The notes under the pieces: model-generated
The model's database searches: none
Seen by the model: the letters and a program-made list of their open reading frames with translations, nothing else
Told to the model about the DNA's origin: nothing
NCBI GenBank assembly: GCA_947650365.1
Contig: OX393552.1
Location: 17,226,775-17,290,774, forward strand
Direction of reading: 5' to 3'
DNA from: Chamaelirium japonicum
Lineage: Eukaryota; Streptophyta; Magnoliopsida; Liliales; Melanthiaceae
DNA length: 64,000 nucleotides
In this document: positions 14,051-45,421 of the stretch, one piece after another
Layout: each line of letters begins with the position of its first letter
How positions within the stretch are numbered: position 1 is the first letter of the stretch
Translations under genes and position numbers: made by a program

Positions 14051-17000
14051 CTAGTAAAGCGAATCAAATCCTTTGAGACGTTGGAGCAGCTCGCCGTCAG
14101 TAACCTCCATGCGCTCCAACTCTGAAGACCGAGAAGCTACCCGCTCCCGATGCGTCGCCAGCTCGATGCGCTGCTTTGCCAAGTCTGCTCCAGAAGACTT
14201 CTCGATCGTCTCAGCTTTCTCGAAAGATGCGCGAGCAGCCTCTAGCTTCTTCTGCGCCCGAACAAGGCTCGCAGCAGCAAGTGCATGCTGCGCCTCCAGT
14301 CGACGCTCCTCGTCCTCGGCCTTTGCCAGTATCAGGGGGAGGTCATCTTCCATCGAAGCCCGTTTCAAGCAATGAGCTTCACTATCCGCCAAGAGAACAC
14401 GCATCTGTGTCTCAAACAAAGAGCCATCTACTTGGAAGGCCGCCAGACTCTTGCAAAACTCAGACCCCTCGAGGACCCACCAGCTGCTCAAAGCGGCAAA
14501 GCCCTCCTCCTGGAAGGGTGCGAGCGTCGTCTGGATATACTTCCGACAGCTCTCCAAAAGAAGCACAGAAAGAAGGTCTCGAGAACTGCACTTCCCCCTG
14601 ACTGCCTCTGAGTGCACAGGCAAGGTGGGCTCCGGTCCTGAAGACTCAAGTGTAGAAACCGCCTCCTGGACCATCGCCGTGATAACAGTCAGCGGAACCA
14701 CCGGAGCCGAAGGAGGAGGCACAGGCAAACCTCCCGACAAAACGGCTGCGGGAGTAGCCTCTGCCGGAGTACCGGACCGAGCTGGAGGAGTCTGTTCTCT
14801 CCCTACACTGGAGACCTCACCCTCCTCCCCAAAGCCCAACTGCTCCACGTCAATATCATCCAGGTTGACAGCACTGCCGGCAAAATCTGCTCCACACGCT
14901 CTCAAGAGCTCCAAGTTATCCCAGGGAATATCCAGCCCGCCACCTTCGACCAACGTGACTCTAATAGGAGAGCACTCCTGCCCAACCCCCTTTGGGGCAG
15001 ACTCGCAGTCTGGCCCAGCAGACCCTGCCAAAATGAGAGCTGGACAACTTAGCTAACGAAGTAAGAGTGCAAGCACAGACATTCATAAGAAACAAGGAAC
15101 AAGGCATACCTGCAACATCCGAAGAAGATACCCCGGAAGGAGGGATTACCTCATCAGCAAAAAGCCCTGGCTCTCCCTCTCGAGATGGCCCTGCCTCGTC
15201 AGCACCAGTCAAAGCTGCCTCGCACAAGAGGTCCAACTTTCTCCTCTTGGGAGAAGTACACCCACTCCAAGAAGCCTGAGTCTCAGGAAGACTATGAACC
15301 TTGGAGGGCGGAGCCATCTCAACCTCCTGCACAGAAAGTGAAGCCTGGGAAGTACCCTCTCGACGGCCACAAGACTTCTCTGACCATCGCTCCTCGGACC
15401 AGAGACGGCGATCCTCTGACCCCGCCAAAGGGTCAAAAGGAAAGTCAGCCCGTTCACTGCTGGCAAGGACGTCTAGTGGAAGGCTAGCCAAGAGGGGAAG
15501 CACTGACCCATTGACCCAGCGGCGATACTCAGGAGTTGCAGCATCCTTGCCGCCCGACTTAATCCCCGGTGAGAAAGTACACCCAGTAAACCGATCGTAA
15601 AGCGCTCCCCAGAGGCGGTACGCCTCCTGCGGAGTGTAACGTAACCGCAGGCGCAAAGGAGTCCCAGGCAACTCCTGCCGAAAACCCTGCTGACGAGCAA
15701 ACCGGTGGGGAGAGTACCGTGCCACCTCCACTACATCCCCACGACGCCAAACAAGATACCCAGGCCTGCAACTCACCATGCTCCAGTACAAAGGATCGGA
15801 CATCTCCGCCCTATCACATACCAGGGATTTCGTAGAAGGCGCAAGTGCATTTTCCGATACAAATTCGAAGTCAGAAGGGCCCATGCGCCGTAAACACTCT
15901 CGGGCACTAGGCTTCGGACGCTCCCATGCATAAAAAGCGTTCATTACACCTCCCACACAAGGAAGAAAGGGCACCGAGGTCGAAGGTCCACGCGCCGCGA
16001 AGATCCCCTTCGGAAAGTGGAGCCCAATCCAACCATAGAGGTAATGCAGGGGGCAAAAGGAACTGGCTCTGCCTACTTCCCCTCTTGCATTACCCGCACC
16101 CGATAGACTCCAATAAGTGCCGCTAAGCCCGCCATACAACGAGCAGAGGATCGCCGGCGCCAGATTAAGGAACTCTCCAGTCACCATCCGAGCAGCTGCA
16201 AGAAAGGTCCCAGGGCGTACCACATCCCCTTCCCAGGGTAAAGCAAAGCGGCAGAGAAAGAGTACTAACCCCGCTGACCAGTAAACAGCACGCCAGTCAT
16301 CACTACACTCTTCAAGTCCCAAAACTTCCCAGGGACGCTGCGCCCCGGCCATGGAGCACCACTCTTTCTTCAGAGATTCGATCGGTCGCCGGAAAGTACC
16401 AGGCGCCGGCTTCTTTGACGAGGCATATCTCCACATCGGATGACTCGAAGGAGGAGCGTGACGATACTCTCCTCGGAACCAGAAGTCCACCCAATCCGAG
16501 TGAAGTACCCGGTCTGACCGCTCGCGCGCCGCTATAATAGCATACGCCTTAAAAAGCAAAAGGCAAAAGCTAGGAGACTCGTCTGGGTCCGTCAAAACCT
16601 CCAGAGAAGGAACCTCCTCCTGATAATAGCTCCGAACTTCTGGACACCCAGATATGACGTGCACGTCACGAAGGGTGATCCCAATCTCACCAGCTCCGGT
16701 CAAGAAGGTGTTGGTCTCAGGGCACCACTGCTCACACAGAGCCCGGTACATACCATCCGGACGGCTGTACTCCCAGCAAGCCGGCTCCACAAACCTCGCC
16801 AGACGCTCCATCCCTGGCTCTGCCTCTAACGCGCTGGATAGCTCTTTCATCCAGTCCCGGAAACCTCCCAGGTAGGTGACATCTCCACGCGATTGAATCC
16901 CCACACCCCATCGCGTACGGCGGGAACATATCTTCAAAGCAACGACAGGGACCGGAACTGACTCATCTCCAGTATGATGAAACGGTAACCCCAAGCTCGG

Positions 17001-17339
17001 CCGGACAATTTGCCGGGAAGACCCTTCGTCAGTAAGAATGCGCTCGCCAAGTTTTAACACTCGACAAGAGCCGTCGGTCACACCATCCTCGCAAACTCGC
17101 TCGTGCGTCAAAAGCTGAAGCACTGACAGCCCGGTCTCCTGTCTCGAAGCACGGTGATGGGAGACTCGCGCGAAGGGGAAGCAAAGGTACGTACTCCCGT
17201 GGGAAACCGCATCAACAATCCAGCCGGAACCCGGAAAGCTCTCGTAACGACGAGACCTGAAAAAGAAAGAACACAAAGCCCTAGTCAGATGGATTCCGAG
17301 TACAGAAGCAAAGAAATCAAAAGAGGGGGCCTCGAGCAA
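14051..17339 (-). CDS. Antisense gene of element 1: plant mobile domain protein with C-terminal coiled coil
   Basis: Two overlapping minus-strand frames (792 and 326 codons) join through a predicted 85-nt intron (15109-15025) and stay in frame, ending at TAG 14053-14051. The N-terminal part reads as a plant mobile domain (PMD, 'aminotransferase-like'): YLGGFRDWMKELSSALE, then CEQWCPETNTFLTGAGEIG and ITLRDVHVISGCPEVRSYY. A basic PKRRKLD nuclear-type signal follows, then an acidic/proline middle and a coiled coil (LVRAQKKLEAARASFEKAET..). The frame opens with TTG, not ATG, and a strong acceptor (TTTCTTTTTCAG|GTC, AG ending at 17257) lies inside it, so the true start is probably in an upstream exon within 17340-18600. 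PMD antisense genes are known from Tat elements; their role is unknown. The coding part is undamaged. Confidence 0.82.
15025..15109 (-). other. Predicted 85-nt intron of the antisense PMD gene
   Basis: Donor CAG|GTATGCC (intron starts at 15109) and acceptor CATTTTGGCAG|GG (intron ends at 15025) on the minus strand. The phase at both ends joins the two frames without a stop. Both sites fit plant consensus well. Confidence 0.8.
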
Positions 17340-17665
17340 ATAAAAAAGAAGAGAGGGGGGTCACGGCAAAAAGCCACGACCCTCTCCTCCTTCCTCCTGG
17401 TGAAACTAGCAGGGGGGCCTTTAGCAAATAAAGAAAGACAAGAGGGGGGTCATGGCAAAAAGCCACGACCCCCTCTTACTATCTCTCCTGTTAAATCAGC
17501 GAGCAGGGGGCCTTCAGCAAATAAAGAAAGACAAGAGGGGGGTCGCGGCAAAAAGCCACGATCCCCCCCGTCTCTCCTATTAAATATACAAAGGGGGGGG
17601 GGGGCCTCCAGCAAATAAAGAAAGAGATAGGGGGGTCATGGCAAAAAGCCACGACCCCCTCTCTC
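17320..17665. repeat. Four ~90-bp repeats, each with a perfect hairpin
   Basis: Units of the form 'gggggcct..agcaaataaagaaag' followed by an inverted repeat around AAAAA: an arm of GAGGGGGGTC(A/G)(C/T)GGC pairs with GCCACGACCCCCTC. Hairpins lie at about 17351-17387, 17440-17477, 17534-17570 and 17625-17664. The arms are 11-15 bp and vary by compensating or wobble changes. They lie at the 5' side of the antisense gene and before the polypurine tract. Confidence 0.85.
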
Positions 17666-17689
17666 TATCTCTTATTTTACCATGCAGAG

Positions 17690-18330
17690 GAGGGGCGTCG
17701 TCCCCGGTCGCCTACGCCGCTCCGGCAACGGCGCCGCCGGCCCCCGCAGCCTCGGCCGCCGGCCTCCGCGCACTCGCCCGCGCCCGGCTCCGGCCCCCAG
17801 CGCCCCGCGCCCGCGCCGCCGGCCCCCGCGCGCCCTGCGCCCACGCCTCCGACCCCCACGCGCTGCGCCCGCCCTCACGCCGCCGGCCCCCGCGCCCGCA
17901 GCCCGGCCGCCTCCGGCCCCCGCGCCGCCCGCTGCGCCCGCGCCTCCGGTCCCGCGCGCTGCACCCGCAGCCCCGGCTACCTCCAGCCCCCGCGCCGCCG
18001 GCCCCCGCGCCCGCAGCCCCAGCCGCCTCCGGCCCCCGTGCCGCCCGCTGCGCCCGCGCCTCCGGTCCCGCGCGCTGCACCCGCAGCCCCGGCTGCCTCC
18101 GGCCCCCGCGCCGCCCGCTGCGCCCACACCTCCGGCCCCCGCGCGCTACGCCCGCGCCCCGCATGCTGCACCCGCGCCCCGCGCCTCCAGCCCGTGCGCC
18201 GGCCGCCATGGCAGCCCCCGGCCGCACCCGCGCCTCGCTCCCTCCGACTCGCGCCCTCCCGCGCCTTGAACCCGTGCGCCGGCCGCCACAGCAGCCCCCG
18301 GCCACGCCCGTCGCGCCCTCCCGCACCATG
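17690..18330. repeat. Extremely GC-rich degenerate repeat block
   Basis: About 640 bp of C/G-rich text made of variants of 'cgcgccgccggcccccgcgcc', with interspersed 'gctgcacccgcagccccggc'. All frames are open for long stretches and give only Pro/Ala/Arg strings; I treat them as composition artefacts. The base composition is unlike the rest of the element. Confidence 0.8.
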
Positions 18331-18642
18331 CGAAGAAGAGGAAGGAGAAGAAGGAGAGGAAGAAGAAGAAGAAGGAGGAGGAGAAGGATCACCTCGCCGG
18401 CAACCCTCTGCCCTCCACGGGCCGGCGATCTTCTCTCCTCCGCGAACCCCATGCCGTCACCATCTTCATCCTCCGCGGCATCGTTGCGAAGCAAGAAACC
18501 CTAGCAGAGCTCTCAACTCCAAGCCGCCGGGAATCGCCGATAATGAAGAGAAACGAAAGACAGGGGTCCTTTTAAAGACCTAATCCCACACGAACACGCG
18601 ACTCAAGTCCAACCGCTACGCGTTTCCCGCGGGCGCACTCGA
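18331..18642 (-). promoter_or_regulatory. Possible leader/promoter region of the antisense PMD gene
   Basis: On the minus strand this reads CTAGGGTTTCTTGCTTCG followed by ATG-containing GC-rich sequence (18494 downwards). CTAGGGTTT is the telo-box-like motif common in plant leaders. Together with the acceptor at 17257 it suggests a first exon here and an intron spanning the GC-rich block. No TATA box was seen. Confidence 0.3.
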
Positions 18643-18657
18643 ACTTGAGGGGGCACT
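18643..18657 (+). other. Polypurine-tract region, element 1
   Basis: Sequence acttgagggggcact directly abuts the 3' LTR start at 18658. GAGGGGG is the expected plus-strand primer. Confidence 0.65.
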
Positions 18658-20854
18658 TGTGGGCATCGAAATTAGCCCACGGGTCGAACCCGATTTTTAC
18701 ACAAAAAAATAGGCCCGCACCCGACGGCCTTCGGGTCAAACCCGATTTTTTCACGAAAAATGGGCTTGCACTCGATGACCTTCGGGTCGAGCCCGACTCG
18801 CTCATGCAACTTGGGCCCGCACACAACGGCCCACATGCGAAACTTGGGCCCGCACACAACGGCCCGCATGCGAAACTTGGGCCCGCACACAACGGCCCGC
18901 ATGCGAAACTCGGCCCGCACACAACGGCCCGCATGCGAAACTTGGGCCCGCACACAACGGCCCGCATGCGAAACTCGCCCGCACACAACGGCCCGCATGC
19001 GAAACTCGCCCGCGCACAACGGCCCGCGTGCGAACTCGGCCCACGTGCGAACCCAATTTGCGCGCGCATGGCCCGACCCAAAGCAAACGGGTCCCATCGG
19101 ACCCGCAACTCGGACACAAAGAGGGGGGCCCACCGGCCCCCCCTTCTTGAAAACCGTGCCCCCCTCCTCATGAAGGGGTGGGGCCGGCCATAAAGAAAAA
19201 AAGAAAAAGAAAAAGAAAAAAAAGAAAAGAAAAAGAAAAGAAAAGAAAAAGTCAAAACCGCCTTGATGCGGGGGGAGGTGGCGTGGACGTCTACACAACC
19301 GTAGATCCGCGACGATCCCTCGATCCAACGGACAAGATGACGTTGCGTCGCCATCCGATCCAAAAGTGCAACAAAAATAACAACTCGATCTTTAAAGATC
19401 AAGTCACAACTAGCCCATAACCACTCCAACTAAAAAGGAGGAAATCGGGTTTGTTTCCCCAAATAAGGGAACAATATCTCGATGGTTATGAGGGGAGAGA
19501 TTGGAGGAAACAAAAAGATTTCAGCAACATCTCCCCCAACCGCCCCCCTTTGCCTATAAATAGAAGGGGTCGGGGAAGGCATCAAGGGTCCGAAAAGTGG
19601 AAGACGAAAGAGCGCTACGAAGAAGCTCCAACGCTTGAAGACCGAAGGCTTCACGAGGCACGGCAAGCATATCCTACGGGAGTCCTTGGCCCTTCAAGTC
19701 CTCATCAACGTGAAGACCTTGCACTCGGAGATCAAAGCTTCGACTCCTCGCACGAAGAAGAAAGCGTGGAGAAGAAGACCCGGAGCTGTCATCACCCGAT
19801 TGCTCCAACGATCTTCATCAGCTCCGAAGACGCCATAAGCAAAGGCCGGAGAAGAAGATCGAAGCCGACAACACCCGTCGTCTTCAATCAAGGCATCGAC
19901 TCCTCGCACGAAGAAGAAAGCCGGGAGAAGAAGGCCTGAAGCCGGTGCTACCCCTGCCGCCTTCGTCAATCAAAAGCCGACGCTACAACCGTCGTGCTAA
20001 AGCCGGTGCCACACCCGCCGTCTTCATCAACAAAAGCCGACGCTACAACCGTCGCACGAAGATCGGTGCTACACCCGCCGTCTTCATCAACGAAAGTCGA
20101 CGCTACAACCGTCGCATAAGCATCGGTGCTACCCCTGCCGAAAAGCCAAAACCGACGCCACAACCGTCGAGGAAGCCGGAAGAATAAAGAAGCCTTGAAG
20201 AAGTAACGCCAGTCGTTCGAGAAGAAGATCGAGTCGAAGCTAAAGTCAAAGCCGACGCAAGAAGCCAAAGCAAACGCACCGGTAAAGCCCGCGCTAAAGC
20301 AACGCACGTGCCAAAGCCAAGCAACTACGACGGTCACGAGCAAAGCACCGCACGTTCTAGCCGATACGACGCGAAGTCCGGAAGAACTAAAGCATCGCAA
20401 GTCTCTACCCGCCTACGTTCAAGCGCAAGCGCCAAAGCAAAGCAAACGCCAGAGCCAAGCCAAAGCTACGCCAAAGCCGAAAGCTAAAGCCAAAGCCGAA
20501 GCCAAAAACACGATCGACGCCGCGAACCGACGATCAAGGACGCCAAGGTCTAGCAAGGATCGAGGAAGACACGAAGACCGAGGAACGAAGCCCAAAGCCT
20601 CCCTAGCCGAGAAAGCGCGAAGCACGGACGGGACAAAATCAACGGCGGAAACTCCTTAGCCTCTCAAGAAATCCTCACCCTGTAAAGACCTCTGTCCTGG
20701 GCAACCCCTTCAGAGCTCTCGCACGAACACCACGTGGAGACGCGGATCAAAGGGACCCTCCAGAGGATCTCTCCCACAATCTCCTGATCAAAGAAAATTT
20801 GTAATCTCGTGTGATCCGCAATAAAGACGACCCGAATCTTTTTCTGCGACCACA
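18658..20854 (+). repeat. 3' LTR of element 1
   Basis: A copy of 3628-5824 with the same 2197-bp length. Line-by-line comparison showed no substitution or indel. The TATA box is at 19554 and AATAAA at 20820. The flank ATCAC at 20855-20859 is the right target duplication. Confidence 0.95.
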
Positions 20855-20995
20855 ATCACGGTTATACCAAAGTTTTTCTCCAAGTTCATCCCATTATGTC
20901 TCACCAATCAAGGGATACCAGTTGTCCACTCCATGTGGAGTTGTCCCGCTAGGTTGTCGCTCAATTTGTTCAAATAGCATTACTCACTAGTATAT

Positions 20996-23025
20996 GAGGT
21001 TTTTCCCACAACTGCCCAAACTCGCACCTATTAGTAGAAATAGGCTTGGTTGCTTTTTGCATTACTTTTCTAGCCCTCAACACGTGCCGAATGTCACTTC
21101 TGAACAGTTGTTACATTTTTGTGACCGATTTACCCTTAAAGACTAAACAAAATAAATAAAAAGTATGTTCATCTTCTCCGTTTGAATTTTTTCTCGCTTC
21201 AACTGCCTCTCGTCACCGGAGTTCGTTGGGATGATGTTATTTTTCATCCCCAACGTCTTTACATAGCGTAAAATATTTTCTGAGTCATTGTCGTCGAACC
21301 GGTGGCGAGAGGACGGTGGCCAGTGACGGTGGTAGGCGGTAAGAAATGAGAGGTAGAAATAAGAGCCGGAGGCAAGTTTGGCACGGTATACCTTTTTCAT
21401 TTCTCATTAGAATTTAGTGATTTTGGAGGCATTGCAATCCTCGGGTGATCCTCTACGAGATTATTTAGAGACGAGGATAAAATGAAGTCAGTACATCCAG
21501 TAGTTTTTAATGAAAGATTTGATGGATGTAATATAAAATTAGTGAAAAAAATGGAAGAAATGAAAGTCGGAGACAAGTTCGGCATAACTAACGTCTTATT
21601 AGCCACCACCCATTGTCATCGCCGCTGGCTACCACCCTCGCTGCCCCATTAGCCACCGCAGGTGCTTGCCGACGGGGCGACGGAGACGGTCAACCAGTGG
21701 TCGGTGGCCGCCACCACCGACTGGATGGCGTCATCGGCAAGATGTGTCCTCTAGTGGTCGATGACGACGGGTACATTAGTGAAGATGCACCGGAGCATCA
21801 ATAAGGATGCGTCGGCGCATAAATGAAGATGCACCGGTGCATTAGTGAAGATGCATCGGCACATTGGTGAAGATGCTCTAACGCATCAGTGAAGATGCTC
21901 CGGCGCATTCTATTGCAGCTTGCAGTGAAATGCTCCGGCAAATTCTACTGTGTCACGCAGTGAAATGCACCGGTGCATTCTACTACGTCCCGCAATGAAA
22001 GGCAATGGCGCATTCTTCTGCGGCAACAAAGTAAAATGCATGGGAGATAAAAATAAGAGTCGAAGGTAAGTTCGACATGATGTAACTTATTCGTTTCACA
22101 TCGGAATTTAGTGATTTCGGAGGCATTGCGATCCTCGGGTGATTCTCTGTGAGATCGTCCAAATTTGAGCATAAAATGAAGTCTACACCATCGGTAGCTT
22201 TCAATGGAAGATTGGATGGATGCAATATAAAAATAGTAAGCAAGAAGGAAAAAATGGGATATGGAAATGAGATTTGGAGGCAAGTTCAGCACGACACAGC
22301 GACGGCAGGTTGTGGTGGCATCCCCATTGGGTTCATCCCATGGCCCAATCATAGCCATTGAAATACACACACATAATGCGTTGATGCATCAGTAAAATGC
22401 ATCGGTGCGCATGATGCATCAGTGTATCAGTAAAATGCACCGGTGTATCAGTGAAATGCGCCGACGCACAGACACATCAGTGAAATGATATGAAGTATTA
22501 ATATTTCACTGATGCGCCGACCCATGTGCGCCAGAAGCATTTCACGGTGGCCGACACCCCATCAGCCACCACTCACTGCCATCGCCGCCGGCCACCACCC
22601 CACGCTGCCCCATCGGCCACTCACAGTGGCCGATGGGACGACGACGGCGGGCAATCGGTGGAGGTGGTGGCTGACAACAACGGCGGTGGGAGGTGCTCGT
22701 CGGTGGTTGACGGCGGTAGGCGGGTGACGACGGCCAATGGTGGGCTGCAGTCGGTTGTGGTATTGGCATCCCTCGAGAATTAATCCCATGGTCCAGAAAT
22801 GGGATGCACCACGTCTCTTCCTAAAACGTCAGTAATCGAAAGAGTAGACATGATCATGAGTGAAACATAGTCAAATCCCTTTGAAATAAGGAGTGAAGCC
22901 TTTTTATAAGTCTTAGGAGTACTTTAATCCAAAATAAAAAGAAATGATCAAAAAATAATACAAAAAAAAATTGAGTCTATTTCCAGCAATAGGACAGAGT
23001 TGGGAGCCATTTTGGGAAAAACCTC
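20996..23025. mobile_element. Mutator-like element, non-autonomous, copy 1 (2030 bp)
   Basis: Termini GAGGTTTTTCCCA... and ...TGGGAAAAACCTC form imperfect inverted repeats extending about 80 bp. Flanks CTAGTATAT (20987-20995) and CTAGAATAT (23026-23034) are a 9-bp target duplication with one mismatch, the Mutator hallmark. Inside are degenerate ~22-bp repeats built on 'gtgaaatgcaccggtgcatt' (21780-22010 and 22370-22510) and GC-rich 'ggtggccgacgacg' segments. No transposase frame is visible. It shares ends and parts of the interior with 56151-59008. Confidence 0.85.
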
Positions 23026-23034
23026 CTAGAATAT

Positions 23035-25128: not shown

Positions 25129-25218
25129 CCAATCCACCTCCTGCCCTCCCCCCCCCCGGCTTCCCCTCCGGCCGTCCACCTCTTGCCCTGCGCACCAACT
25201 CCCTTGTGCGTTCCCTCC

Positions 25219-25221
<3 letters not shown>

Positions 25222-25301: not shown

Positions 25302-25303
<2 letters not shown>

Positions 25304-29884: not shown

Positions 29885-30324
<440 letters not shown>

Positions 30325-32122: not shown

Positions 32123-32635
32123 CGGGTATTTTTTAACTCGATTTGAAGGGAAGGAGTAGGAAGAGAGCAATGTTGTCTTCTTTTCTATTTTTTCCCCGCT
32201 TGAAGGGAAGGAGGAAGACATATTTATCCACAATGCACCGCCAAGTTTCTTTCTCCATCCAACTTTTGGTTGCCAACTTGATGTGGCGCCCGATCATTGC
32301 CGCCTGTTTGCCTGATAGTTGGGACTAAGTGCAATTCATCAAGATGGATGCAACAAAGGGCTGTGATCGTGCCACCTCATGGTGGCAAGGCCGGGAAAGA
32401 AGCAATTAGGAGATGTGAAGGAATATATCCATTGAATGAAACCATATATTCACTGTATATTCACTGTATTCATCTTCACTGTATTCATTGTTCCATTCTT
32501 CACTGTATTCACTGTATATTCATCTCCACTGTATTTGTTGGGGGTAGCTGAAACTCGCCCAGGAGTTCGCCCCCCCGTGCTCACCAAATCATCTTGACAG
32601 GGAGCGAGATCCACATTGGGCTGAAGGGGCCCTAG

Positions 32636-32990
32636 GCAAAGAGCTCGCTCAGGAGCTCGCCCAAGCACGCTCAGGAGCTCGATCAAGCTCGCGCAGGAGC
32701 TCGCCTAAGCTCGCTCAGGAGCTCGCCAAAGCTCGCTCAGGAGCTCGCCCAAGCTCGCGCAATAGCTCGCCCAAGCACGCTCAGGAGCTCGATCAAGCTC
32801 GCGTTGGAGCTCGCCTAAGCTCGCTCAGGAGCTCGCCAAAGCACGCTCAGGAGCTTGCCAAAGCTCGCTCAGGAACTCACCAAAGCTCGCTCAGGAACTC
32901 ACCAAAGCTCGCTCAGGAGCTCGCCCAAGCTCGCTCAGGAGCTCGCCCAAGCTCGCGCAATAGCTCGCCAAGCTCGCACGAGAATTCGCT
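32636..32990 (+). repeat. 22-bp minisatellite in element 2 LTR
   Basis: About 16 units of gagctcgccnaagctcgctc plus 'ag', with variants gatcaag, gcctaag and gcgcaat. The 3' LTR has a shorter array at 46240-46530. Each unit has two GAGCTC/AGCTCG palindromic cores. Confidence 0.9.
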
Positions 32991-33404
32991 TGCAGTGGCA
33001 GCGGGAGTTAGACCGTCATGCATACAAAGACACCGGCATTGCAGACGTCCCAAGCTCACTCAGGACGAGCTCGCCCTGGCTTCCCACCTGAGGTCGCCCG
33101 CAATAGGGCAGCATGAAGGGCTGCCAGGTGTCGAAATCCCACAGAAGCTACGTGGACAAACGTCCATGGAAGCCCGCCCTAGTCAGTTTGAGACCGCCCA
33201 GACTTGAACAGTCCAGAATAACCACCTGGCAGCAACAAGAAAGATGCTCTCCCCCACTCAAACCGCCTGGCAGGCTCGACGACAAAGAATGTCAGGGGCG
33301 TGAGTTCCAAGGATCGTCAGAGACCCACGCGAGCCAGAACATGGGGGTCTAGAAGGCTCTGGAAAGAATCTCCACGTGTCGGGCAACGGTAGGTCGCCAA
33401 TGTC

Positions 33405-33411
33405 TATAAAT
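33405..33411 (+). promoter_or_regulatory. TATA box of element 2 LTR
   Basis: TATAAAT preceded by a CACGTG-containing stretch (33373) and CCAATG (33398). The copy in the 3' LTR is at 46954-46960. Confidence 0.7.
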
Positions 33412-33607
33412 GCCCACCCCTAGGCTCCAGAGTACAGGTTCGAAACCCTTTTCCCTACCACTTTTGTCTACTACAGCTCACCGTTGTGCACCTGAGACTG
33501 ACTTGAGCGTCGGAGGGTCTGCGCTCCTAAGGGAGCCAGCCGTTCTCACGCTTTTTCTTTGTCTTGCAGGCAGCCCGCACGGACCAGTGAAAAATCCCCT
33601 AAATATT

Positions 33608-33695: not shown

Positions 33696-36530
33696 ATGGC
33701 TCCGGCGACAAGGGGACGCAGGCGACCGAGGACCCGTGCGAGGTCTGCGCGCAGCGAACCTCCTGTTGAGACCCCCCAGCCCCATGTCCTGCTCAGTGAC
33801 CAGCTCCTGTTGGAAATGTTGGCCACCCAACGGGCCATGATGGAGGAACTTTCCGGCGGCCAGCCGACGGTCCGGGCCGGCGAAGACGGCATCTCCGGTG
33901 CGACCACCAGCTTCAACATCGCGCCCGCCCACGACCATTCCGGCTCGGCAGGTTTCCCATCCGGAACCCCCGGTCGAGAGAGCGGCCGTGCGCGGGGTGC
34001 CGGAAACCCCGCTTACGAGGTTGCAGAAGCTAGTAACCCAGCGGTCTAGCAACCAGGCGACCTCGCAGGCGACCATCCCTCGCCGCCGTAGCCGGAGCGC
34101 CGATTCTGACGTGTCGGAGGCAAGGTCTCTAGAGCGGGATCGCGACCCGCGCCATCGGTGACGAGGGAAAGAGCCCGCGGTGGCTATACCTTCCGAAGCT
34201 CGAGAGGCAACGGCCTCCCACAGACCAACCGCCACGCTGAAGGAATCCGCGGGCGAACAGCGAGGAGACCGCCGAGCGGTAGCCCCCGAGGGTCGCCGCG
34301 GGGTGGATCCGAACCTCCCTCGAGGGAGCATGCACGGCCGCCTAGGACCTGCGCAGCAGCCTCTGGGAGTTTTTCCCGGGCACTGGCAGCGACCTAACGC
34401 GACGGTAGACCTGCTGGAGGACCTCGCCGCCCACGGGGGTAGCTCGTCCTTCCCGAGCGAGGTGCACCAAGGAGGTTTCCCTCGCCATTGGACCCCGCCT
34501 AAGTTTGTACTGTTCGATGGATCGCAAGATCCAGTCGACCATCTATTGGCTTACCGGAAGCTGTTATTTTTCCGGGACCAAGACCATGTCTTGTGCCGGG
34601 CTTTCCCGAGTAGCTTGACGGGCTCGGCGCTAAACTGGTTTCACAAACTGCCATCGGGCACCATTCCAGACTTCCCTACTCTCTCCAGACTATTTCTGGA
34701 GCAGTACCGCTGCAACAGGCAGCCCCCAAAGAGGATTGAGTCTCTCTTCACCTTGGCCATGGGAGCCCGCGAAACCCTTCGAAGCTTCGCGACGCGCTTT
34801 CGAAGCACCTACCTCGCTCTGGAGGACGCTGTCGGCCAAGATCGCACAACGGTGAGCGCTTTCCGGAACGCCCTCCCCGAGGGAAGCAAACTTCATGACG
34901 CGCTGGTAATCAAGGATCCCCGCACGATGGTCGAGCTCTTCGCCCTTGTCCAGCAACACATCAAGCTCGAAGATGCGGTGTTAGACCGGAAGGGAAAGGC
35001 AGTCGAGCAGTGACCTCCTCCGGCTCTGCGACCTCTCATCGTTAAGGCCGTGGAGAGGCGAAAGGTGCCACTGGTGGTACCTTTGCCCGGATCGCCCGCA
35101 ACTTCTGCCGTACAGCCCGCTGAAATCCCCACGGTGGTCGCTGGAAGGCCGGCGAACTGGCGCCTGCCTCCGGGACCCGGGGAGTAGGATTTCACCGTGT
35201 TAACCCACTCGCCAGGGCAAGTCTTTCACCAGATCCGGAATGAACCTTTCTTTCAGTACCCACCACCCCTGCAGGTCGGGGAGCCCGGCTCTACCGACAA
35301 CACGCGGCGGTGCGCCTTTCATCGCAGCCCCGGGCATCACACCAACAGATGCCGGGCTCTGAAGAACCACCTCGAGGACTTGGTCGCCCAAGGCCATTTG
35401 GATCAGTTCATTTCGCCTCCCAGGAGATTCGAGGTGATACCGGCGTGGGCTCCTAGGGAAGGAGATCGCCCGGGGCCCGCTGAGCCCGCCCTACCTCCAC
35501 CTCCCCCGGGAGGGTCGGCGGTCTGTCACACTATCAGCGAGCGCCTGAGCGGCCCAAGATCCAGCAACGAGGTTCGTCGACAAGTTAGAGAGATGGAGCG
35601 GGCTCAGAAGGTATTCTCCGTTTCTCTAACCCCTGTATTGCTCCAAACACCAAGGATAGAAGCCCGAGACTTCATTTGGTTCTCGGAGGAGGACATGGCC
35701 GGGGTGGTTACCCCCCACAATGATCCCCTCGTCATACGCCTTATGATGGCGAACATCGAGGTAAGGCGGGTCCTGGTTGACCCGGGAAGTGCCGTAGATA
35801 TTATGTTCTTATCGGCCTTCTAGCGAATGGGGTTGAGACAAGTTGACTTGTCTCCCTCAACGGGCTCGCTCACCGGTTTCATTGGCGAGGTCGCTAAGGT
35901 GGCAGGGGAGATAACCCTCACCGTAACGGCGGGCCCGAAGGTACGTCAAGTCCGTTTCACGGTGGTGGATGGGTAGTCCGCTTTCAATGCCATCCTAGGG
36001 CGACCTTGGCTGAGGCAGATGAAAGCGGTGTCCTCGCCTAATCACCAGGCCCTCAAGTTCCCCACCAACGGAGGGGTCGTGGTAATTCGAGGAGACCAGG
36101 TCGCTACTACCAGGTGCGAGCAGGACGTCTTTCACCTCGCAGACGTTGAGGTCGCTGAGGCCAAGAGGCCCGCGCCCTCCTAGCAATTAACGCCCACCTC
36201 GAGCGGGCTCCCTCAAAGCCCGAGAGAGGTCGCCTCGCTTAGATCCCCTACTTCACCCCCGGGTGGGAGCGGCGTGCATCTTGAGCTCGAGGAGAAAGGT
36301 CGCCTACCAAGGTCCCAGAGAGGAAGTTTTCCCGTTGCCGAGCCATTGCAAGAAGTCAACGTCGGTGGCCTGGGCGGACCAAGGATCATCCATCTCGGGA
36401 CCTCGCTAACCAAGGGCGAGGTCCTGGCCCTAACCAACATACTCAGGGAATACCGTGACGTATTCGCTTGGAGCTTCGCGGAATGCCAGGGATTGACCCG
36501 GAGGTCGCCTGTCATCGTCTGCACACCATG
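33696..36530 (+). pseudogene. gag: Decayed gag-protease of element 2
   Basis: It starts at ATG 33696 (MAPATRGRRRPRTR). A frame change falls between 33900 and 34050. The later frame holds the Gag domain (HWTPPKFVLFDGSQDPVDHL, LNWFHKLPSGTIPDFPTL), a C-x2-H-x4-H-x4-C knuckle (CAFHRSPGHHTNRC) and a protease with D-P-G-S-A and ILGRPWL. In-frame stops are TGA 34159, TGA 35011, TAG 35185, TAG 35821, TAG 35974 and TAG 36181. A one-base shift near 36482 separates it from the RT frame. Each stop is one C-to-T step from CAG or CGA. The product cannot be made as it stands. Confidence 0.88.
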
Positions 36531-38475
36531 AAAGAATTCCCGCCGGTCAAGCAAAAAGCTCGGCACATACCTGCTGCGAAGTCCATTGCAGTGGCGGCGG
36601 AGATAAACAAGCTAGAGCGAGCTGGCTTTATACGCGAGGCGCACTTCCCCGAGTGGATCTTCAATATTGTGGCGGTGCCCAAGAAGAGCGGGGCGGTCAG
36701 AGTGTGCATTGACTTCTCCGACCTCAATAAAGCATGCCCGAAGGACGATTTTCCTCTTCCACGGATAGGCGCACTGGTCGACGCAGCTGTCGGGTTCCAG
36801 GTCCTGTCCTTTATGGATGGATATTCTGGGTATAACCAGATACCTCTCCACGTCGACGATCAAGAGAAGACCGCTTTCTATTCTGGGGCGGGCTACCAGA
36901 AGCTATTCTGCTATCGAGTGATGCCTTTTGGACTAAAGAACGCTGGAGCGACCTACCAAAGGTTAGTCACTCAGATGTTTAAGGGTCAGATCGGCAGGAA
37001 TGTCGAAGTTTATGTAGATGACCTTCTGGTGAAAAGTCGAAAGCGAGAGGGGCATGTCGCCGATCTCCGCGAAACCTTCGAAGTGTTGAGAAAGTACCAA
37101 ATGAGGCTAAACCCGGCAAAGTGCGCATTCGGGGTGACTTCTGGGAAATTCCTAGGGTACCTGGTCACCCACAGGGGGATCGAGGCCGACCCTGGGCAAA
37201 TCCGAGTACTTGTCGAAATGCCCGCACCAAGAACCCGGCAGGAGGTCCAAAGGTTGAGCGGGCGAATCGCCGCGCTCAATCGGTTCATCTCCAAATCCTC
37301 AGACAATTGCCGACCTCTTTTCGAGCTACTACGAAAAGGAGCGAGCATTCGTTGGGATGAAAAGTGCGAGCGCGCCTTTCAAAAGATCAAGGACTATCTA
37401 GCGAGCCCGCCAATCCTAGCGGCACCCAAAGATGGCGCCGAGCTTGGCGTATATCTCGCGGTCACAGAGAATGCGGTAAGCGGGGTCCTTGTTGTAGAAG
37501 AAGCAAAGGTGGAGCGGCCTATCTACTTTGTAAGCCACACAATGCTTCCCGCCGAGCTCCGGTATCGACCAATCGAGAAGGTCGCATTGGCCTTGGTCCT
37601 TACCGCGAGAAAGCTTCACCCCTACTTCTCGGCGCACACTGTCAAAGTCATCACGGAGCACCCTCTGAAGAGCGCGCTCTCCAGACCCTCGGTAGCCGGC
37701 AGGCTCTATCGATGGTCCGCCGAGCTCGTCGCTTATGGTTTGGAGTATGTCCCTCGAGTTGCTGTCAAAGGGCAGGCTCTCGCCGATTTCTTGGCGGACT
37801 TCCCCATAGAAGAACCGGTCCAGTACCAGGAGGATGAGCCAACTGAGGCACACCCTGGGAAGGCGAGGTTCTTGGACAACCAAGGCGAGCTTCCTCCAAC
37901 TAAGCATTCAGAGATGGCGGGCTGGAAATTATTCGTCGATGGATACTCCAACGCTTTGGGGGCCGGGATCGGGGTTGCACTGATCGCTCAATTGGTAATT
38001 CTTGAGAAATCAGTCCGGCTGGATTTCGCTGCTACCAACAACAAGGCAGAGTATGAGGCGCTGCTGGCTGGTCTAGAGCTTGCTCAAGAAGTAGGCGCCA
38101 AACGGTTAAAGGTTTTCAGCGATTCCCAGCTGATCATTTGTCAAATCAACGGGGATTATGCCTCCCGGGATACGCGAATGGCGGGCTACGTGGATCTGGT
38201 AAACGAAAAGGCCGCAGAGTTCAAAAAGATCTCCTTCGAGCAAATTCCTCGAGCCGATAATAGGCGAGCTGATGCTTTGGCAAACGCCGCCTCCCTGCTG
38301 GGAACATCAGAAGCTCGCCAGATTCTCATCGAGGTCCAAAATCAGTCTCGGCTCCGACTGATAGAGCTCGCTGTTAACCAAGTCTCTGCCGACGTATCAC
38401 CCGACGGGTGGACCGCCCCCATTCTTTATTTTCTCCAGAAGGGCGAGCTTCCAGAGGGTAGAGAGGAAGCCCGGC

Positions 38476-40813
38476 TGTAGACACACGAATTTCGTCAGAC
38501 CCGAACCTGACTTACGTGTGCCGACGCGGATGCAAATCCGACACGCGGACCCAACTCGCGCGCATTGACGTGGATGCAAACCCGACACGCGGACCCGACT
38601 CGCGCGCGCCGATGCGGACCCGGACCCCACTTCAAGAGGGGCCGGCCCCTACTAGGGTCCGAACCCCATAGGGCCGGCCCTAGTAGAACCCGAACCCCAT
38701 GGGGGGCCGGCCGGCCCTGCAAGGAAAGGGAAGAAAAGGAAAGAAAAGAAAAGAAAGAAAAGAAAAAGGAAAGAAAAGAAAGGAAAGAAAAGAAAAGGAA
38801 AGAAAAGAAAAGGAAAGAAAAGAAAGAAAAGGAAAAAAATACCGCCATGCGCGGGGGGAGGTAGCGTATGACGTCTGCACACACGCGGATCTGCGCCGAT
38901 CCCTCGATCCGACGCACAAGACGAAGCGCCCGATCGCCATCGATTTCGTGCGCAAAGTCCAGCCATAATTGCACCCGCCAGAAAAGGAAAACAACTAAAT
39001 GTTATTCCCCTCATCAATGGATGAATAAAATCCGGGTAATTATGAGAGAGATACAAAAGGGATTTAAAATTAAAAAGTTCCCATATCTCTCTCCCCACCT
39101 CTTTGCCTATAAATAGAGGGGGTGGGGGAAGGAAAAAATGGTCGGGAAATTGAAGACAAAACGCCAGAGCTCTGCAGAAGAGGAAACATTTCTTCATCGA
39201 CCCAAGGCTTCACGAGGCACAGTCAAGCCTGTCCCGAGGGATCGGCTTACTGAAAGTCCTCATCAACGTGAAGACCCTTGCACACGAAGATCATCCCTTC
39301 GACTCCGTGCACGAAGAAGAAAGCTCGGAGAAGAAGAACCCTTCGACTCCGAAGACGCCAGAAGCAAAGGCCGGAGAAGAAGAGGAGCGGCACTACCCCG
39401 TCGTCTCCAACAAGCTTCGACTCCGATCAAGCCCAAAAGCCCGGAGAAGAAGAGGAGCGGCACTACCCCGTCGTCTCCAACAAGCTTCGACTCCGATCAA
39501 GCACAAAAGCCCGGAGAAGAAGAGGAGCGGCACTACCCCGTCGTCTCCAACAAGCTTCGACTCCGATCAAGCCCAAAAGCCCGGAGAAGAAGAGGAGCGG
39601 CACTACCCCGTCGTCTCCAACAAGCTTCGACTCTGATCAAGCCCAAAAGCCCGGAGAAGAAGAGGAGCGGCACTACCCCGTCGTCTCCAACAAGCCTTCG
39701 ACTCCGATCAAGCCCAAAAGCCCCGGAGAAGAAGAGGAGCGGCACTACCCCGTCGTCTCCAACAAATCCTCGATCCCGATCAAGCCCCAAAGCTCGGAGG
39801 AGAGAAGCGAAGCGTCATCACCCCGTCGTCTTCGACTAACACCTGCGCCATCCACGAAGAAGAAAGCCTGGAGCAGATCGTCTGAAGCGTCGCTACCCCG
39901 TCGTCTTCATCAACAAAAGCCGACGCTACAACCGTCGCACGGAGACCGTCGCTACCCTCGTCGTCTTCATCAACAAAAGCCGACGCCACAACCGTCGCAC
40001 GAAGATCGGTGCTACCCCCACTATCTTCGAAAGCATTCTTCGACTCCGATCACGCCAAAGAAGCCCAGAGAAGAAGAGAAGTCCAATCGATACGTAAACC
40101 GTCGAAGCACCGGAGAAGTAGCCCACGTCGTTCGAAGAAGAAGATCGAGTTGACGCCAAAGCTAAAGCCAACGCAAGAAGCCAAAGCAAAGCCCCAGTAA
40201 AGCCCGCGCCAAAGCAACGCAAGTGCCAAAGCCAAGCGACTACGCCGGCCACGAGCAAAAGCACCGCACGTTCTAGCCGATACGACGCGAAGTCCAGAAG
40301 AACGAAAGCATCGCAAGTCTCTCCCAGCTACGTCCAAGTGCAAGCGCCGAAGCAAAGCAAAAGCCAGAGCCACACCGGAGCAAAGCCAAAGCCAAAATGC
40401 CAAAGCCAAAGCCAACGCCAAAAGCTAGATCGACGCCGCGAACCGACGATCAAGGACACCGAGGTCAAGCAAGGAACGAGGAAGACGCGAAGACCGAGGA
40501 ACGAAGCCGAAAACCCCCTAGCCGAGAAAGTGCGAAGCACGGAAGGGACAAAGCAACGGTGGACATTCCTTAGCCTCTCCAAAACCCTCTCCCTGTAAAA
40601 CCCCTGTCCTGGGCAGCCCCTTCAGAGCTCTCGCATGAACACCACGTGGAGACGCGGATCAAAGGGATCCCCCAGAAGATCTTTCCCACAATCCCCTGAT
40701 CAAAACTCGCCGCAACCCGGACTCGCTACACCCGAGCAACCCGGGTCCCGGCCACAATTGTAATCTTGTGTGATTCGCAATAAAGACGACCCGCGCTTTT
40801 TTCCGCGTCCACA
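38476..40813 (+). mobile_element. Solo LTR of the element 1 family inside element 2 pol (2338 bp)
   Basis: It starts TGTAGACAC, ends GCGTCCACA and is flanked by perfect CCGGC copies (38471-38475, 40814-40818). Its order of parts matches the element 1 LTR: 'gggtcgaacc'-like start, AAGAAAAGG tract, CTATAAATAG (39107), tandem repeat, then 'gacgcggatcaaaggga', 'gcaataaagacgacccg' and the end. The sequence is clearly diverged, so it is a sister subfamily. It was left by recombination between two LTRs. Confidence 0.92.
39373..39795 (+). repeat. 70-bp tandem repeat in the solo LTR
   Basis: Six units starting ggagaagaagaggagcggca at 39373, 39443, 39513, 39583, 39653 and 39725. All frames stay open but carry only Arg/Glu/Ser-rich repeats, so I do not call them genes. 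Confidence 0.92.
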
Positions 40814-42106
40814 CCGGCGAGTGGAGAAATACGCTGGTCGCTATCTCATTCGCTGGAATCGCCTTTTTCGAAGATCTTTTGGCGGGCCAAATCTTCGTTG
40901 CATCGAGAGCCCGGAGATCGAAGAAGTTTTGAATTGCATTCACTCTGGCGAGCTGGGAAACCACGCTGGTGGGCGGTCTCTAGCTGCGAAAGTACGGAGG
41001 CAAGGATACTGGTGGCCCACTCTGGAGCAAGATGCCTTGAAGGTCGTACAAAGCTGCATCCAATGCCAGAAGCACGCCACGACAAATCATATACCCGCAG
41101 AAGAACTGCATCCTCTGGCGAGCCCCTGGCCGTTTCAACAATGGGGGCTAGATATTGTGGGACCTTTTCCCGTATCAGCCCGGCAAAGGAAATTCATCTT
41201 AGTGGCTACGGACTACTTCACCAAATGGGTGGAAGCGGTCCCGCTAGCTAAGATAGGTGAGAAGCAAGTGAAAGACTTCCTTTGGAAGAATATTTTCTGC
41301 CGGTTCGGTCTGCCTCGGGTACTTATCACCGACAATGGTCGCCAGTTCGACAATCGCTTGATCAGAAGCTTTTGCGTTGAATATGGAGTCGACCTAAGGT
41401 TCTCGTCCCCAAGGTACCCTCAAAGCAACGGGCAGGCCGAAGCTACGAATCGTGTAATCCTAGACAACCTCAAGAAAAGGCTAGAAGGGAAAAAAGGATT
41501 GTGGGAGCAGGAGCTCGATGGAGTCTTGTGGGCCTATCGCACTACTCCACGTCGCTCAACTAACGAGTCCCCTTTCAGTCTCACTTTTGGTTGCGAAGCC
41601 GTGCTACCCGTAGAAGCCGAGCTGCCCACTGAAAGAAGGCTTGCGTCGGAGGAGGTCGACAACGACAAACTGCTCGCCGACTCCCTCGATCAGCTCGAAG
41701 AAAGACGAGAGCGCGTCAATCTACACCTCGCCGGATATAGACAGGAAATGAAGCGCGCATATGACAAAAGAGTCCGCCATCGGGCATTCAAGGCTGGTGA
41801 CATGGTGATGAGAAAGGTGTTCGCAAACACGCAAGAGCCTAATGCAGGAAAGCTCGTGGCGAACTGGGAAGGCCCCTACATAGTACACGAAGCAGGAAGC
41901 TCGGGGGCTTACCGGTTGATGACCGCTGAAGGCGACCTGTTAGAGCGACCTTGGAATGCTTTGCACCTTCGCAAGTTTTATGCATAAGACCAGGGGATTT
42001 TGTAAATCATCTTCTGAAGAAGTTATGAATGAACGATGAAGGTTTCAACAAAGAATTTAACTCGGAAGCTCGGCGCAGCAAGAGCCCGCATGATCTATAA
42101 AGTGTA

Positions 42107-42440
42107 GTCCGCCGCTGAGTGGACTTAAAGCAAGACCGGGATCCTCAGAGGCAGCCAGTGGGAGACCTTGAGATTCCCGGGGCAGTCCGTCGTTGTGCGG
42201 ACTTAAAGCAAGACCGGGATCCTCAGAGGCAGCCAGTGGGCGACCTTGAGCTTCCCGGGGCAGTCCGCCGTTGTGCGGACTTAAAGCAAGACCGGGATCC
42301 TCAGAGGCAGCCAGTGGGCGACCTTGAGATTCCCGGGGCAGTCCGCCATTGTGCGGACTTAAAGCAAGACCGGGATCCTCAGAGGCAGCCAGTGGGCGAC
42401 CTTGAGATTCCTGGGGAAGTCCGCTGCCTAGTGGACTCTA
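42107..42440 (+). repeat. 78-bp tandem repeat between pol and the antisense gene
   Basis: Units start gtccgc at 42107, 42185, 42263, 42341 and 42419 (last one diverged). Each begins with an inverted repeat, AGTCCGCCGTTGTGCGGACT, forming a 7-bp stem and 6-nt loop. Since 78 is a multiple of three, a 152-codon frame with 26-residue repeats runs through; probably incidental. Confidence 0.92.
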
Positions 42441-42901
42441 AACCTAACCGGGATCCTTCGCGTTCACCTGCCATGAACGGAAGCATCCTGGCGTGGGCAT
42501 ACCCCTCAAAGGGCAAGTCCGCTGAACAGGATCATCGAGGGAAATTAACCGGGCAGGGGGCAGCTAGCACTTATTAGTTTCCTTCAAAAATAAAAATGGT
42601 TTAAGTCTCTGAGTGTAGGGAAGTTTTTGAAGTCATTTGGTTCGCTTATCGTTTTCCGGGCTCAGAGACTATATTTAGTTTTAGCGAGCATGCCGAGTTT
42701 TTCGTTTGCATATACTTTAAAATAAAAAGGTTGAATCGAATTAGCTGCCTCGCCCGGGGTATCACTCTCGAGATCACTGTGAAACTCCTAAAGCGGACTC
42801 ATGAGCGACACAGAGAAAGAAAGAAACGCATAGGCGAGCTCAAAAAGATGAAAATTTCATTGATTGACAAAAATTATAAGAACAATTACAAGGCTGCGAG
42901 C
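42441..42901. other. Untranslated stretch between tandem repeat and antisense gene end
   Basis: It contains 'ccgggcagggggcagctagc' and AT-richer DNA. It probably holds the 3' end of both the sense pol transcript and the antisense mRNA. A minus-strand TTTATTTTAAAG (near 42725) could supply a poly-A signal. Confidence 0.35.
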
Positions 42902-45421
42902 TCAAGGCTTGCTAGTCTCCGCCCCACTGTCGTCCCCTCGGCGTCGCTTCTTCGACCTCTCGGTCTTGTACTTTTCCATAGCAGCCAGGGCGCCTTTCTT
43001 GAGGAGATCGTCCAGCTGGGCTTGGAGGCGACCTTGTTGAGCCCGAAGGCCTTCGGCGTGCGTCTCCTTCAGGGCGGCGATCTCTGTCTTCAGAGCAGCG
43101 ACCTCGCCTTGAAGTTGAGCCGCCTCCTTCCTAGCGGCCTCTCTGGCAGTGACGGCCTCGTCCCGCTCCGCCACGGCCTTTTTGAGGTCGTCGGAGGACT
43201 TGAGCTGGGACGCCTCCAGCTCGGCCATGCCCGACACCAGGGTCGCGACCCTCTGCCGAAGCTCCTCCGCCTCTTTCAGAGCCACGGCGTGCGAAGCCCG
43301 CTGGAGCTCGTGGATGTGCTCGTCCACCTTGCGCTCAGACCCCCGAAGGGAATCGTCGAACAAGGCGGCCAGCGCCTTCGCGGCCCCAGCGACCTCCGCG
43401 GCCAGCGCCTGGCTCTGTTTCTCCGCCTGCATAAGGAAGATGAAAAAGTTAGAGAGAATTAACATTTTTGGCATAAGGGCAGAGAGGGCAAGAGGTACCT
43501 CGGCCAGGCGTTCGCTTATGGAAGCGAAGGGGGCTCGGGCGAAGACGTTGCGGCCCAGCAGCTGCCGCACGTAGTAGGGCGCCCTCCCCTCCTCCGCAGA
43601 GGAGCCCGCGCTGGGACCCCCCGGAGCGTCGGTAGGAGGCGGCACGCCGGGAGAAGGAGTGGGGGCTGGCGCCTCTCCCGGGCGAGCTCCGGCTGCTGGC
43701 GGGCTCGGAGGGTCCGCCCTAGCCCCTTTGGCCTCCGACTCCGAGCTGAAGGACTCAGAGTCGGAGCCAATGTCCACGAAGCTAGGGGACCTGTAGACCG
43801 GGTCCCCCAGGCCTTGCGGGGAGCCCGCTCCCTCCTGGCCCCCTGCAGGAGGCGAGGCCGGAGGGACGGGAGCTGGAGCCGCTGCCGGCGAAGAGGTCGC
43901 AGCGGTGGCGTTGGATTCGCCCTGCTGGACCCCTACCCCGGCGGCGGGAGGTGGAAGCTCCTGCCCGCTCGGTCCCGCCCCTGGTGCGGGAGCTGATGGA
44001 GCCGGGGGCTTCTCCACTTGGGCGGGAGCGACAGGCTCCGCCCGGGGAGCTTGAGGGGCGGGCTCTTCCTCCTCGGAGCCTGATGCCTCCTCCTCGGAGT
44101 CCGTCCACTCGGGCTCCGAGTCCAAGCCCGCCTCCTCTAGCGCTTTTCGCCGTAGCTCCGTCTGGGCGTTCGAAGGCGCGGGCCTCGCACGCTTAGCCTT
44201 CTTCTTCCCGCGGGCCTCCATCTCCGGCGTCAGCACTACTACACGGAGAGGGACGGTCAGATCGCCGGGGAAGTTGCCCATTAAAATCTGAGCCATCCCG
44301 GATTCGACTTCCGTCATGGTTAGCGGGAGGTCGACGTTAGGGTCGTCGGGCTCGACCATTTGAATCTTGCGGCGAACAATGGGAAGTGGGGCAGGTGGCT
44401 GACCTGGGCCGGCGTCCGGGTGAGGAGGTGGTGGAGGCGCGGAGTCCGTTTCCTGGCGGAGCATCTCTATCGTGTCGGGGTCGTTGAGGCGGATGGGCGA
44501 AGCCCGCCTCCGGACCGTCTTCTTGCGGGGGTTGCCTCCCGAACTCCCCGCCCCCTTGCTGGCCCCTTTGAAGGGAGGAGGGACGTTCTGCATCGGCGGA
44601 ATAACACCGATCTCCTCCTCCTTCTTCTTCCGGACGATCTTCTGCTTCAGCAGAATAGCGCCGGTCTTCCCGTCCTTCAGCTGGAAGGCGAAGTCGGGAG
44701 CAGTGATCTTCTCCGGAGTCTGCCCCCCGAGGTAGTGAAGGAACGCCTCGTCCAGAGATCGCTCCCGATCGGGAGCGATGCACTTCTTCTTCCCCGCCCG
44801 GAAGAAGGAGATCTCCCGGAAGACCGCCGTCGGGGGAACCCCGGGGTGAGCCGGGACTCCGCTGTGCCGCCCGCGCCAGTCACCGACCGCCACGAAAGGA
44901 TAGTCCTTCCAGTGGCGGTCCTTGCTCTCGATGGTGGAGAAGGGGAGCACCTCGCCAGGCCGCCCGGCGAGGTAGAAGTAGCCGCAGCCCGCGGTGCTGA
45001 AGACCGGCCCGGGCTTGAGGAGCCACTTTTTGAGCAAGTAGCTCAGTGGGATCCTCGCCTTTAGGGCGGTCTCCAGCTGGGACAACCCGTAGAGTATCCC
45101 CCAGGAGTTTCCTGAGAGCTGGGCGGGGCAAAGCCCCGTCAACTCCAGGAGCTCCCCGGCGAGATGACTCAGGGGGAACCGCAGCCCAGACCACAGCAGC
45201 CCGACAAAAGCTACTGTGCCCTGGGGCGGCCTCCCCGAGAGTGGCATCTCGGTGACGAGGATCTCCCGAGGGAGATCGATCGCCGCCCGGATACTATCCC
45301 CAACGGGCACCCCGATGGGGTTTTGCAGCCAGACCACCGCTCTCTCAACAACGGACTCAGAAGCTTGGACGGTAGCAGCAGCGGCGGCAACAACAGCAGC
45401 AACATCGGCAGCGGAGGCCAT
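42902..45421 (-). CDS. Antisense gene of element 2: PF04195-type domain plus coiled coil, 839 codons
   Basis: An ATG-initiated open frame on the opposite strand to pol. Residues ~60-190 (PLSGRPPQGTVAFVGLLWSG, LRFPLSHLAGELLELTGLCP, AQLSGNSWGILYG) read like the 'putative gypsy type transposon' domain PF04195. Then come Lys-rich, Pro-rich and acidic segments (KKKAKRARP, WTDSEEEASGSEEEEP), a predicted 72-nt intron (43498-43427) encoding a hydrophobic stretch if unspliced, and a long Glu/Ala/Lys coiled coil ending in SKKRRRGDD. The frame has no stop although gag-protease in the same element has six. It is not similar to the antisense PMD protein of element 1 in its N-terminal domain. The function is unknown; basic clusters suggest nuclear location. 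The family call is by pattern recall. Confidence 0.82.
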   Translation of the reverse strand: MASAADVAAVVAAAAATVQASESVVERAVVWLQNPIGVPVGDSIRAAIDLPREILVTEMPLSGRPPQGTVAFVGLLWSGLRFPLSHLAGELLELTGLCPAQLSGNSWGILYGLSQLETALKARIPLSYLLKKWLLKPGPVFSTAGCGYFYLAGRPGEVLPFSTIESKDRHWKDYPFVAVGDWRGRHSGVPAHPGVPPTAVFREISFFRAGKKKCIAPDRERSLDEAFLHYLGGQTPEKITAPDFAFQLKDGKTGAILLKQKIVRKKKEEEIGVIPPMQNVPPPFKGASKGAGSSGGNPRKKTVRRRASPIRLNDPDTIEMLRQETDSAPPPPPHPDAGPGQPPAPLPIVRRKIQMVEPDDPNVDLPLTMTEVESGMAQILMGNFPGDLTVPLRVVVLTPEMEARGKKKAKRARPAPSNAQTELRRKALEEAGLDSEPEWTDSEEEASGSEEEEPAPQAPRAEPVAPAQVEKPPAPSAPAPGAGPSGQELPPPAAGVGVQQGESNATAATSSPAAAPAPVPPASPPAGGQEGAGSPQGLGDPVYRSPSFVDIGSDSESFSSESEAKGARADPPSPPAAGARPGEAPAPTPSPGVPPPTDAPGGPSAGSSAEEGRAPYYVRQLLGRNVFARAPFASISERLAEVPLALSALMPKMLILSNFFIFLMQAEKQSQALAAEVAGAAKALAALFDDSLRGSERKVDEHIHELQRASHAVALKEAEELRQRVATLVSGMAELEASQLKSSDDLKKAVAERDEAVTAREAARKEAAQLQGEVAALKTEIAALKETHAEGLRAQQGRLQAQLDDLLKKGALAAMEKYKTERSKKRRRGDDSGAETSKP
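43427..43498 (-). other. Predicted 72-nt frame-neutral intron
   Basis: Donor GAG|GTACCT (from 43498) and acceptor TTCCTTATGCAG|GCG (to 43427) on the minus strand. The inside is T-rich and codes LSALMPKMLILSNFFIFLMQ, unlike the hydrophilic text on either side. 72 is divisible by three and holds no stop, so spliced and unspliced forms are both open. Confidence 0.7.

Follow-up and report, generated by a model that had tools for sequence, protein, structure and literature searches.

Antisense accessory genes in two Tat-type retrotransposons of Chamaelirium japonicum: two probable kinds within a generic layout

Two Ty3/gypsy elements, E1 and E2, lie in a 64,000-nt stretch of plant DNA from Chamaelirium japonicum (the window), and in both a long antisense open frame occupies the interval between pol and the 3' long terminal repeat (LTR). 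The best explanation, to which we give a probability of about 0.6, is that these frames belong to two known Tat antisense accessory genes that have only a generic layout in common, with proposed nuclear products and roles. Both gene kinds, one defined by a plant mobile domain (PMD) and the other by a Transposase_28 head, are already described in print: PMD genes have been published from Ogre elements and antisense Transposase_28 genes from Retand elements, so both halves of the pair are of known kinds. The open frames, the PMD, the predicted splice sites, the TATA box of the E2 gene, and the coiled coils were computed here.

E1 is bounded by LTRs of 2197 bp at positions 3628–5824 and 18658–20854 (+ strand), which have no mismatches between them, and by the target duplication ATCAC. 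The single gap in the BLAST alignment of this LTR pair falls, by reading, just outside the LTR. E2 has a 5' LTR of 1070 bp (32536–33605, + strand), a 3' LTR of 1016 bp (46139–47154, + strand), and the target duplication GTATT. The exact LTR ends of both elements were taken by eye from the printed sequence. The whole alignment of the E2 LTRs has 974 matches, 40 mismatches, and one long gap that is mostly in a 22-bp repeat array; outside the array, divergence is ~1.2%, with nine differences that are all transitions. At an assumed substitution rate of 1.3e-8 per site per year, the upper 95% bound on the age of E1 is ~52,000 years, and E2 is ~0.47 million years old, as calculated from its divergence outside the array. 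Elsewhere in the window, a 502-codon open frame (51557–53065, - strand) matches the POT/PTR2 transporter family with 282 bits and is part of an ordinary host gene. Two self-complementary stretches (29890–30322 and 49658–49970) are alike (81.6% over 320 bp), the first containing long TA/AT runs. Rfam yielded no matches in the window at gathering scores.

The gag-pol of E1 (5876–13741, + strand) is a single open frame of 2621 aa that encodes gag, protease, RT, RNase H, RVT_3, and integrase, with RVT_3 located between RT/RNase H and rve. A pure tract of 74 A bases (13762–13835, + strand) begins 20 bases past its stop and is followed by GTACGTAGGCAGCC at 13869–13882, which occurs once in the window. 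The gag-pol of E2 (34162–41987, + strand) is broken: the frame changes near 36459, an LTR-like insert is present, and there are five in-frame stops, some of which could represent the natural division between gag and pol. Here RVT_3 follows RT/RNase H and precedes a separate integrase frame. The criterion for Tat elements is that RH and integrase are separated by an additional RNase H (PMC6317226), and by this extra RNase H and their domain order both elements are of the Tat type (Ogre/Retand type). An earlier note on this DNA had called them Tat elements, and the position of RVT_3 between RT and integrase, the paired LTRs, and the target duplications bear it out. Identity between the two is 42.6% for RT–RNase H and 40.3% for integrase, which places them in separate lineages within Tat. 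Pieces of the insert in E2 pol (38481–40763) are 77–88% identical to the E1 LTR, from which it follows that the wider family of E1 has inserted into E2.

Within Tat, the two elements differ in how they compare with the described lineages. The Ogre polyprotein lies mostly in two frames (PMC6317226), split by an intron-like region, whereas E1 has gag-pol in one frame; we therefore do not file E1 as Ogre and call it simply a Tat element that carries the PMD kind of gene. An orchid element near Ogre likewise has a single frame (PMC9289625). Reported ranges for Retand elements are 315–1,194 bp for the LTR and ~2.9–6.6 kb for the interval from pol to the 3' LTR (PMC11963269). The E1 LTR is outside this range, and E2 is within both, its LTRs being 1070 and 1016 bp long and its interval 4151 bp. 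E2 thus has interval and LTR lengths like those of Retand elements (RIRE2, Grande, Retand), as well as the same place for the antisense gene and tandem repeats on the pol side (in E2, 78-bp repeats at 42106–42424, + strand, between pol and the antisense gene). No relatives of E1 or E2 were confirmed by scans of viral and prokaryotic sequence collections with exact short peptides, a scope that says little about plants.

The antisense frames are far longer than expected by chance. Measured from stop to stop, they span 799 codons in E1 and 852 codons in E2, and the longest frames among 300 dinucleotide shuffles of each pol–3' LTR interval reached 413 and 367 codons, respectively. The long opposite-strand genes claimed in the earlier note are thus not chance frames. 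Plus-strand frames in the same intervals (352 codons in E1 and 285 in E2) exceed the 95% points of the shuffles (256 and 278) but are still below the shuffle maxima. The antisense gene of E2 has no stop and no frame break, in contrast to the damaged gag-pol of the same element. Selection on the gene was considered as a cause of this difference and dropped as suggestive but not significant, with six point lesions in 5541 bp of gag-pol and none in 2445 bp of antisense gene (P = 0.07, or 0.11 conditional).

In E1, the main exon of the antisense gene (15110–17256, - strand) encodes a PMD at ~16757–16122. The domain scores 60.4 bits against a Pfam cut-off of 34.9, so the PMD head named in the earlier note is confirmed. 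The first in-frame ATG, at 16850, is a candidate start, and the frame has no ATG upstream of it. A predicted intron of 85 nt (15025–15109, - strand, phase 1) joins two frames at residue 580–581, counted in the spliced product from ATG 16850. The last exon (14051–15024, - strand) adds ~323 residues, of which the first ~145 are modelled mostly without regular structure; this disordered stretch is followed by the C-terminal coiled coil. The long helices of the model begin at residue 781, ~200 residues past the intron, and the heptad runs at residue 813. The model of this tail, built from a single sequence, has a mean pLDDT of 54.4.

Further upstream, position 17257 is the end of a pyrimidine-rich predicted 3' splice site, and a TAGGGTTT motif precedes an ATG at 18481. 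Together they make an exon on the 5' side of the GC-rich repeats likely, and the E1 gene probably has an additional, predicted 5' intron. The repeat region, at 17324–18194, includes tandem repeats of 93 bp together with a repetitive stretch of very high GC content, and is probably within this 5' intron or the promoter region. No TATA consensus was found in the E1 interval between pol and the 3' LTR.

In E2, the first exon (43499–45421, - strand) starts with the ATG at 45421 and encodes a head at ~45208–45083 and a low-complexity middle. The predicted intron (43427–43498, - strand) is 72 nt long, in phase 0, and free of in-frame stops; it comes after residue 641, within the first part of the helical region. 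The last exon (42902–43426, - strand) encodes the coiled coil, and its 174 residues, which precede the stop, are nearly all helical in the model. A single-sequence model of the whole unspliced frame has a mean pLDDT of 44.6 and is confident in the coil region only. The E2 intron is a multiple of three in length, and its retention would add 24 mostly hydrophobic residues. A membrane helix formed by the retained intron was dropped as an explanation, the T-rich intron sequence being a simpler cause of the hydrophobic residues. A TATA box (TATAAAT, 45535–45541, - strand, starting at 45541) is 120 bases above the ATG and is the sole match to the pattern in the pol–3' LTR intervals of both elements. 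Two CACGTG motifs are further upstream.

The E2 head matches PF04195 (Transposase_28) with 14.1 bits (E = 0.058), under the gathering cut-off of 26.2, and for that reason is called only Transposase_28-like here. Six positions are conserved in Transposase_28, namely G21, P25, L34, P46, N47, and F55 (Vicient 2025, PMC11963269). Four of the six are present in the E2 head at the place matched by Pfam, which is unique in this respect among 779 places in the E2 protein; four of six are also reached at one of 868 places in the E1 protein. The head is probably a diverged Transposase_28, which leaves the PF04195-type assignment of the earlier note with a weak match in its favor and a score short of the cut-off.

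Other parts of the layout described in the earlier note were recovered to different degrees. Both proteins have a low-complexity middle, although it is weaker in E1, and both end in a coiled coil marked by heptad runs and confident helices at the C-terminus. Basic clusters, which had been ascribed to both, are several in E2 and a single one (KRRK) in E1. A small intron is predicted in the 3' part of each gene, and both introns are short, GT-AG, and T-rich, with a GC content of 0.43 (E1) and 0.40 (E2) compared to 0.56–0.67 for the exons. The claim that they occupy the same position beside the coil fails: the E1 intron is in phase 1 and 200–230 residues before the coil, and the E2 intron is in phase 0 at the start of the coil. 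No equivalent of the predicted 5' intron of E1 is visible in E2.

Both genes nevertheless run in the same order from head through low-complexity middle and short intron to coil, as they would if the two had inherited a common coiled-coil tail and swapped heads. We aligned the proteins and their parts and compared the scores with shuffles. The heads score 34, less than the average shuffle, and 206–223 of 300 local shuffles reach this value. The coils alone are at shuffle level, with a score of 51 reached by 184–225 of 500 shuffles, depending on which of three kinds was used, and by 149 of 500 for a reversed control; a slightly different cut of the coils gave 42–51 of 300. Longer segments exceeded the shuffles slightly. 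Tails taken from the intron scored 69 (7–26 of 500) and tails taken from residues 740 and 600 also scored 69 (16–38 of 500), while the linkers scored 84 (13–34 of 500). The full proteins scored 118, which was reached by 1–3 of 200 local shuffles and 0 of 300 global shuffles, a weaker control, since global shuffling evens out local composition. As several segments were tried, these small fractions are a hint and not proof, and similar base composition of the linkers and helices can yield such scores. The weak excess in the longer tails and whole proteins makes a distant relation of the tails conceivable, but the intron basis for it is gone, since the introns agree neither in phase nor in distance from the coil.

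Structural comparisons point to generic coils. The best match of the E1 tail to solved structures has an E value of 0.45, and the E2 tail matches a bacterial protein (E = 0.02) and designed coiled-coil peptides (E = 0.042 and weaker); the E2 matches are generic coil. When both models, whose quality is poor except in the coils, were searched against the PDB with Foldseek, no match reached E ≤ 0.001. Up to E 10 there were 292 matches for E2 and 42 for the E1 tail, and the best of them (for E2, among the first 50 of the 292) are long-helix proteins. No solved-structure relatives of either head were found up to E 10, and the heads are not comparable by fold because pLDDT is low and only the coil region is confident. 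Given these weak and generic matches, we regard inheritance of a common tail as very unlikely. Still less credible is its fuller form, in which an ancient Tat accessory tail of linker and coil exchanged PMD and Transposase_28 heads within a nuclear counter-silencing family whose PMD members mimic MAIN/MAIL1. No paper comparing the tails or introns of PMD and Transposase_28 genes was found in a literature search that covered few subscription papers.

The preferred reading, two known accessory genes with a generic layout, fits the described relatives of each gene. Extra genes of Tat elements, according to Steinbauerova et al. in 2011, reportedly fall into two broad groups. According to Neumann et al. 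(2019, PMC6317226), 57% of Ogre elements have a PMD and 23% of Retand elements have Transposase_28; antisense Transposase_28 genes were reported in 97% of recent Retand clusters (Vicient 2025, PMC11963269). Ikeda et al. (2017) described PMD-A clades A1 and A2 as Gypsy-only (PMC5418596), and the E1 gene is like these Ogre/Gypsy PMD genes in having a PMD above the Pfam cut-off in a Tat extra gene. A coiled-coil tail like that of the E1 gene is not mentioned in the portions of the published descriptions covered here. Unlike the Transposase_28 genes of Retand, E2 has a head under the PF04195 cut-off with four of six conserved positions. Among the antisense products of Retand there are 11 Smc matches, to which the coiled coil of E2 is comparable, and tandem repeats adjoin pol in those elements (PMC11963269). 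Grande gene 23 and PvRetro13 ORF2, the latter carrying an SMC domain (PMC7264820), are antisense genes between pol and the 3' LTR as in E1 and E2, a likeness drawn from published descriptions. For the Grande gene, an own promoter and a nuclear product are reported (Vicient and Casacuberta 2020, PMC7264820). The view of the earlier note that both are antisense accessory genes, probably of a nuclear kind, agrees with these relatives (PMC7264820, PMC11963269, PMC6317226).

It has been suggested that antisense RNA could regulate the element through double-stranded RNA, as an alternative to a protein or alongside one (PMC7264820). Applied to E1 and E2, the RNA itself would pair with genomic RNA and act on the element in this way. 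Frames of ~800–900 codons, a recognised domain, and predicted splicing that joins frames point instead to a protein, and we consider action by the RNA quite unlikely.

The nuclear product of Grande (PMC7264820) could also be cited for convergence, in which different captured heads came to serve one nuclear role with the coiled coil as oligomeriser in both; the two genes sit in the same place in their elements, point the same way, and both encode a coil, all of which is consistent with it. Nuclear proteins often have a disordered linker and a coiled coil, however, so a shared role is not needed to explain the likeness; function is known for neither gene kind, and two genes are too few to show convergence. 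We hold this reading to be doubtful, if worth keeping in view.

Under the reading of two known accessory genes, the gene of E1 is of the PMD kind, which is known mainly from Ogre elements, and that of E2 is probably a diverged form of the Transposase_28 kind known from Retand. Each gene would most likely be transcribed from an antisense promoter of its own, as in relatives, and each transcript would be spliced at the predicted sites in its 3' part, with probable additional splicing of the E1 transcript near the 5' end. By analogy with relatives, each product may be located in the nucleus, where it could oligomerise via the C-terminal coiled coil. The likeliest role for the PMD kind would be interference with the host silencing route of the related PMD proteins MAIN/MAIL1, and the Transposase_28 kind may regulate the element while bound to DNA or chromatin. 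Host MAIN and MAIL1 silence transposons (PMC5418596) and interact with PP7L (Nicolau et al. 2020, PMC7156037); they are encoded by host genes and share the PMD family with the E1 protein, a comparison that covers the domain only. Anti-silencing by PMDs captured by MULE transposons has been raised as speculation (PMC5418596), and accessory proteins of Vandal elements protect them from silencing (PMC11728184).

Antisense accessory genes are widespread in Tat elements. In the pair described here, two known kinds of head occur with an intron position that is not common to both and a tail that is not clearly so. Because E1 is a very recent copy in which gag-pol and the PMD gene are both open, its family offers a practical way to determine whether PMD proteins encoded by elements counter the MAIN/MAIL1 silencing route.
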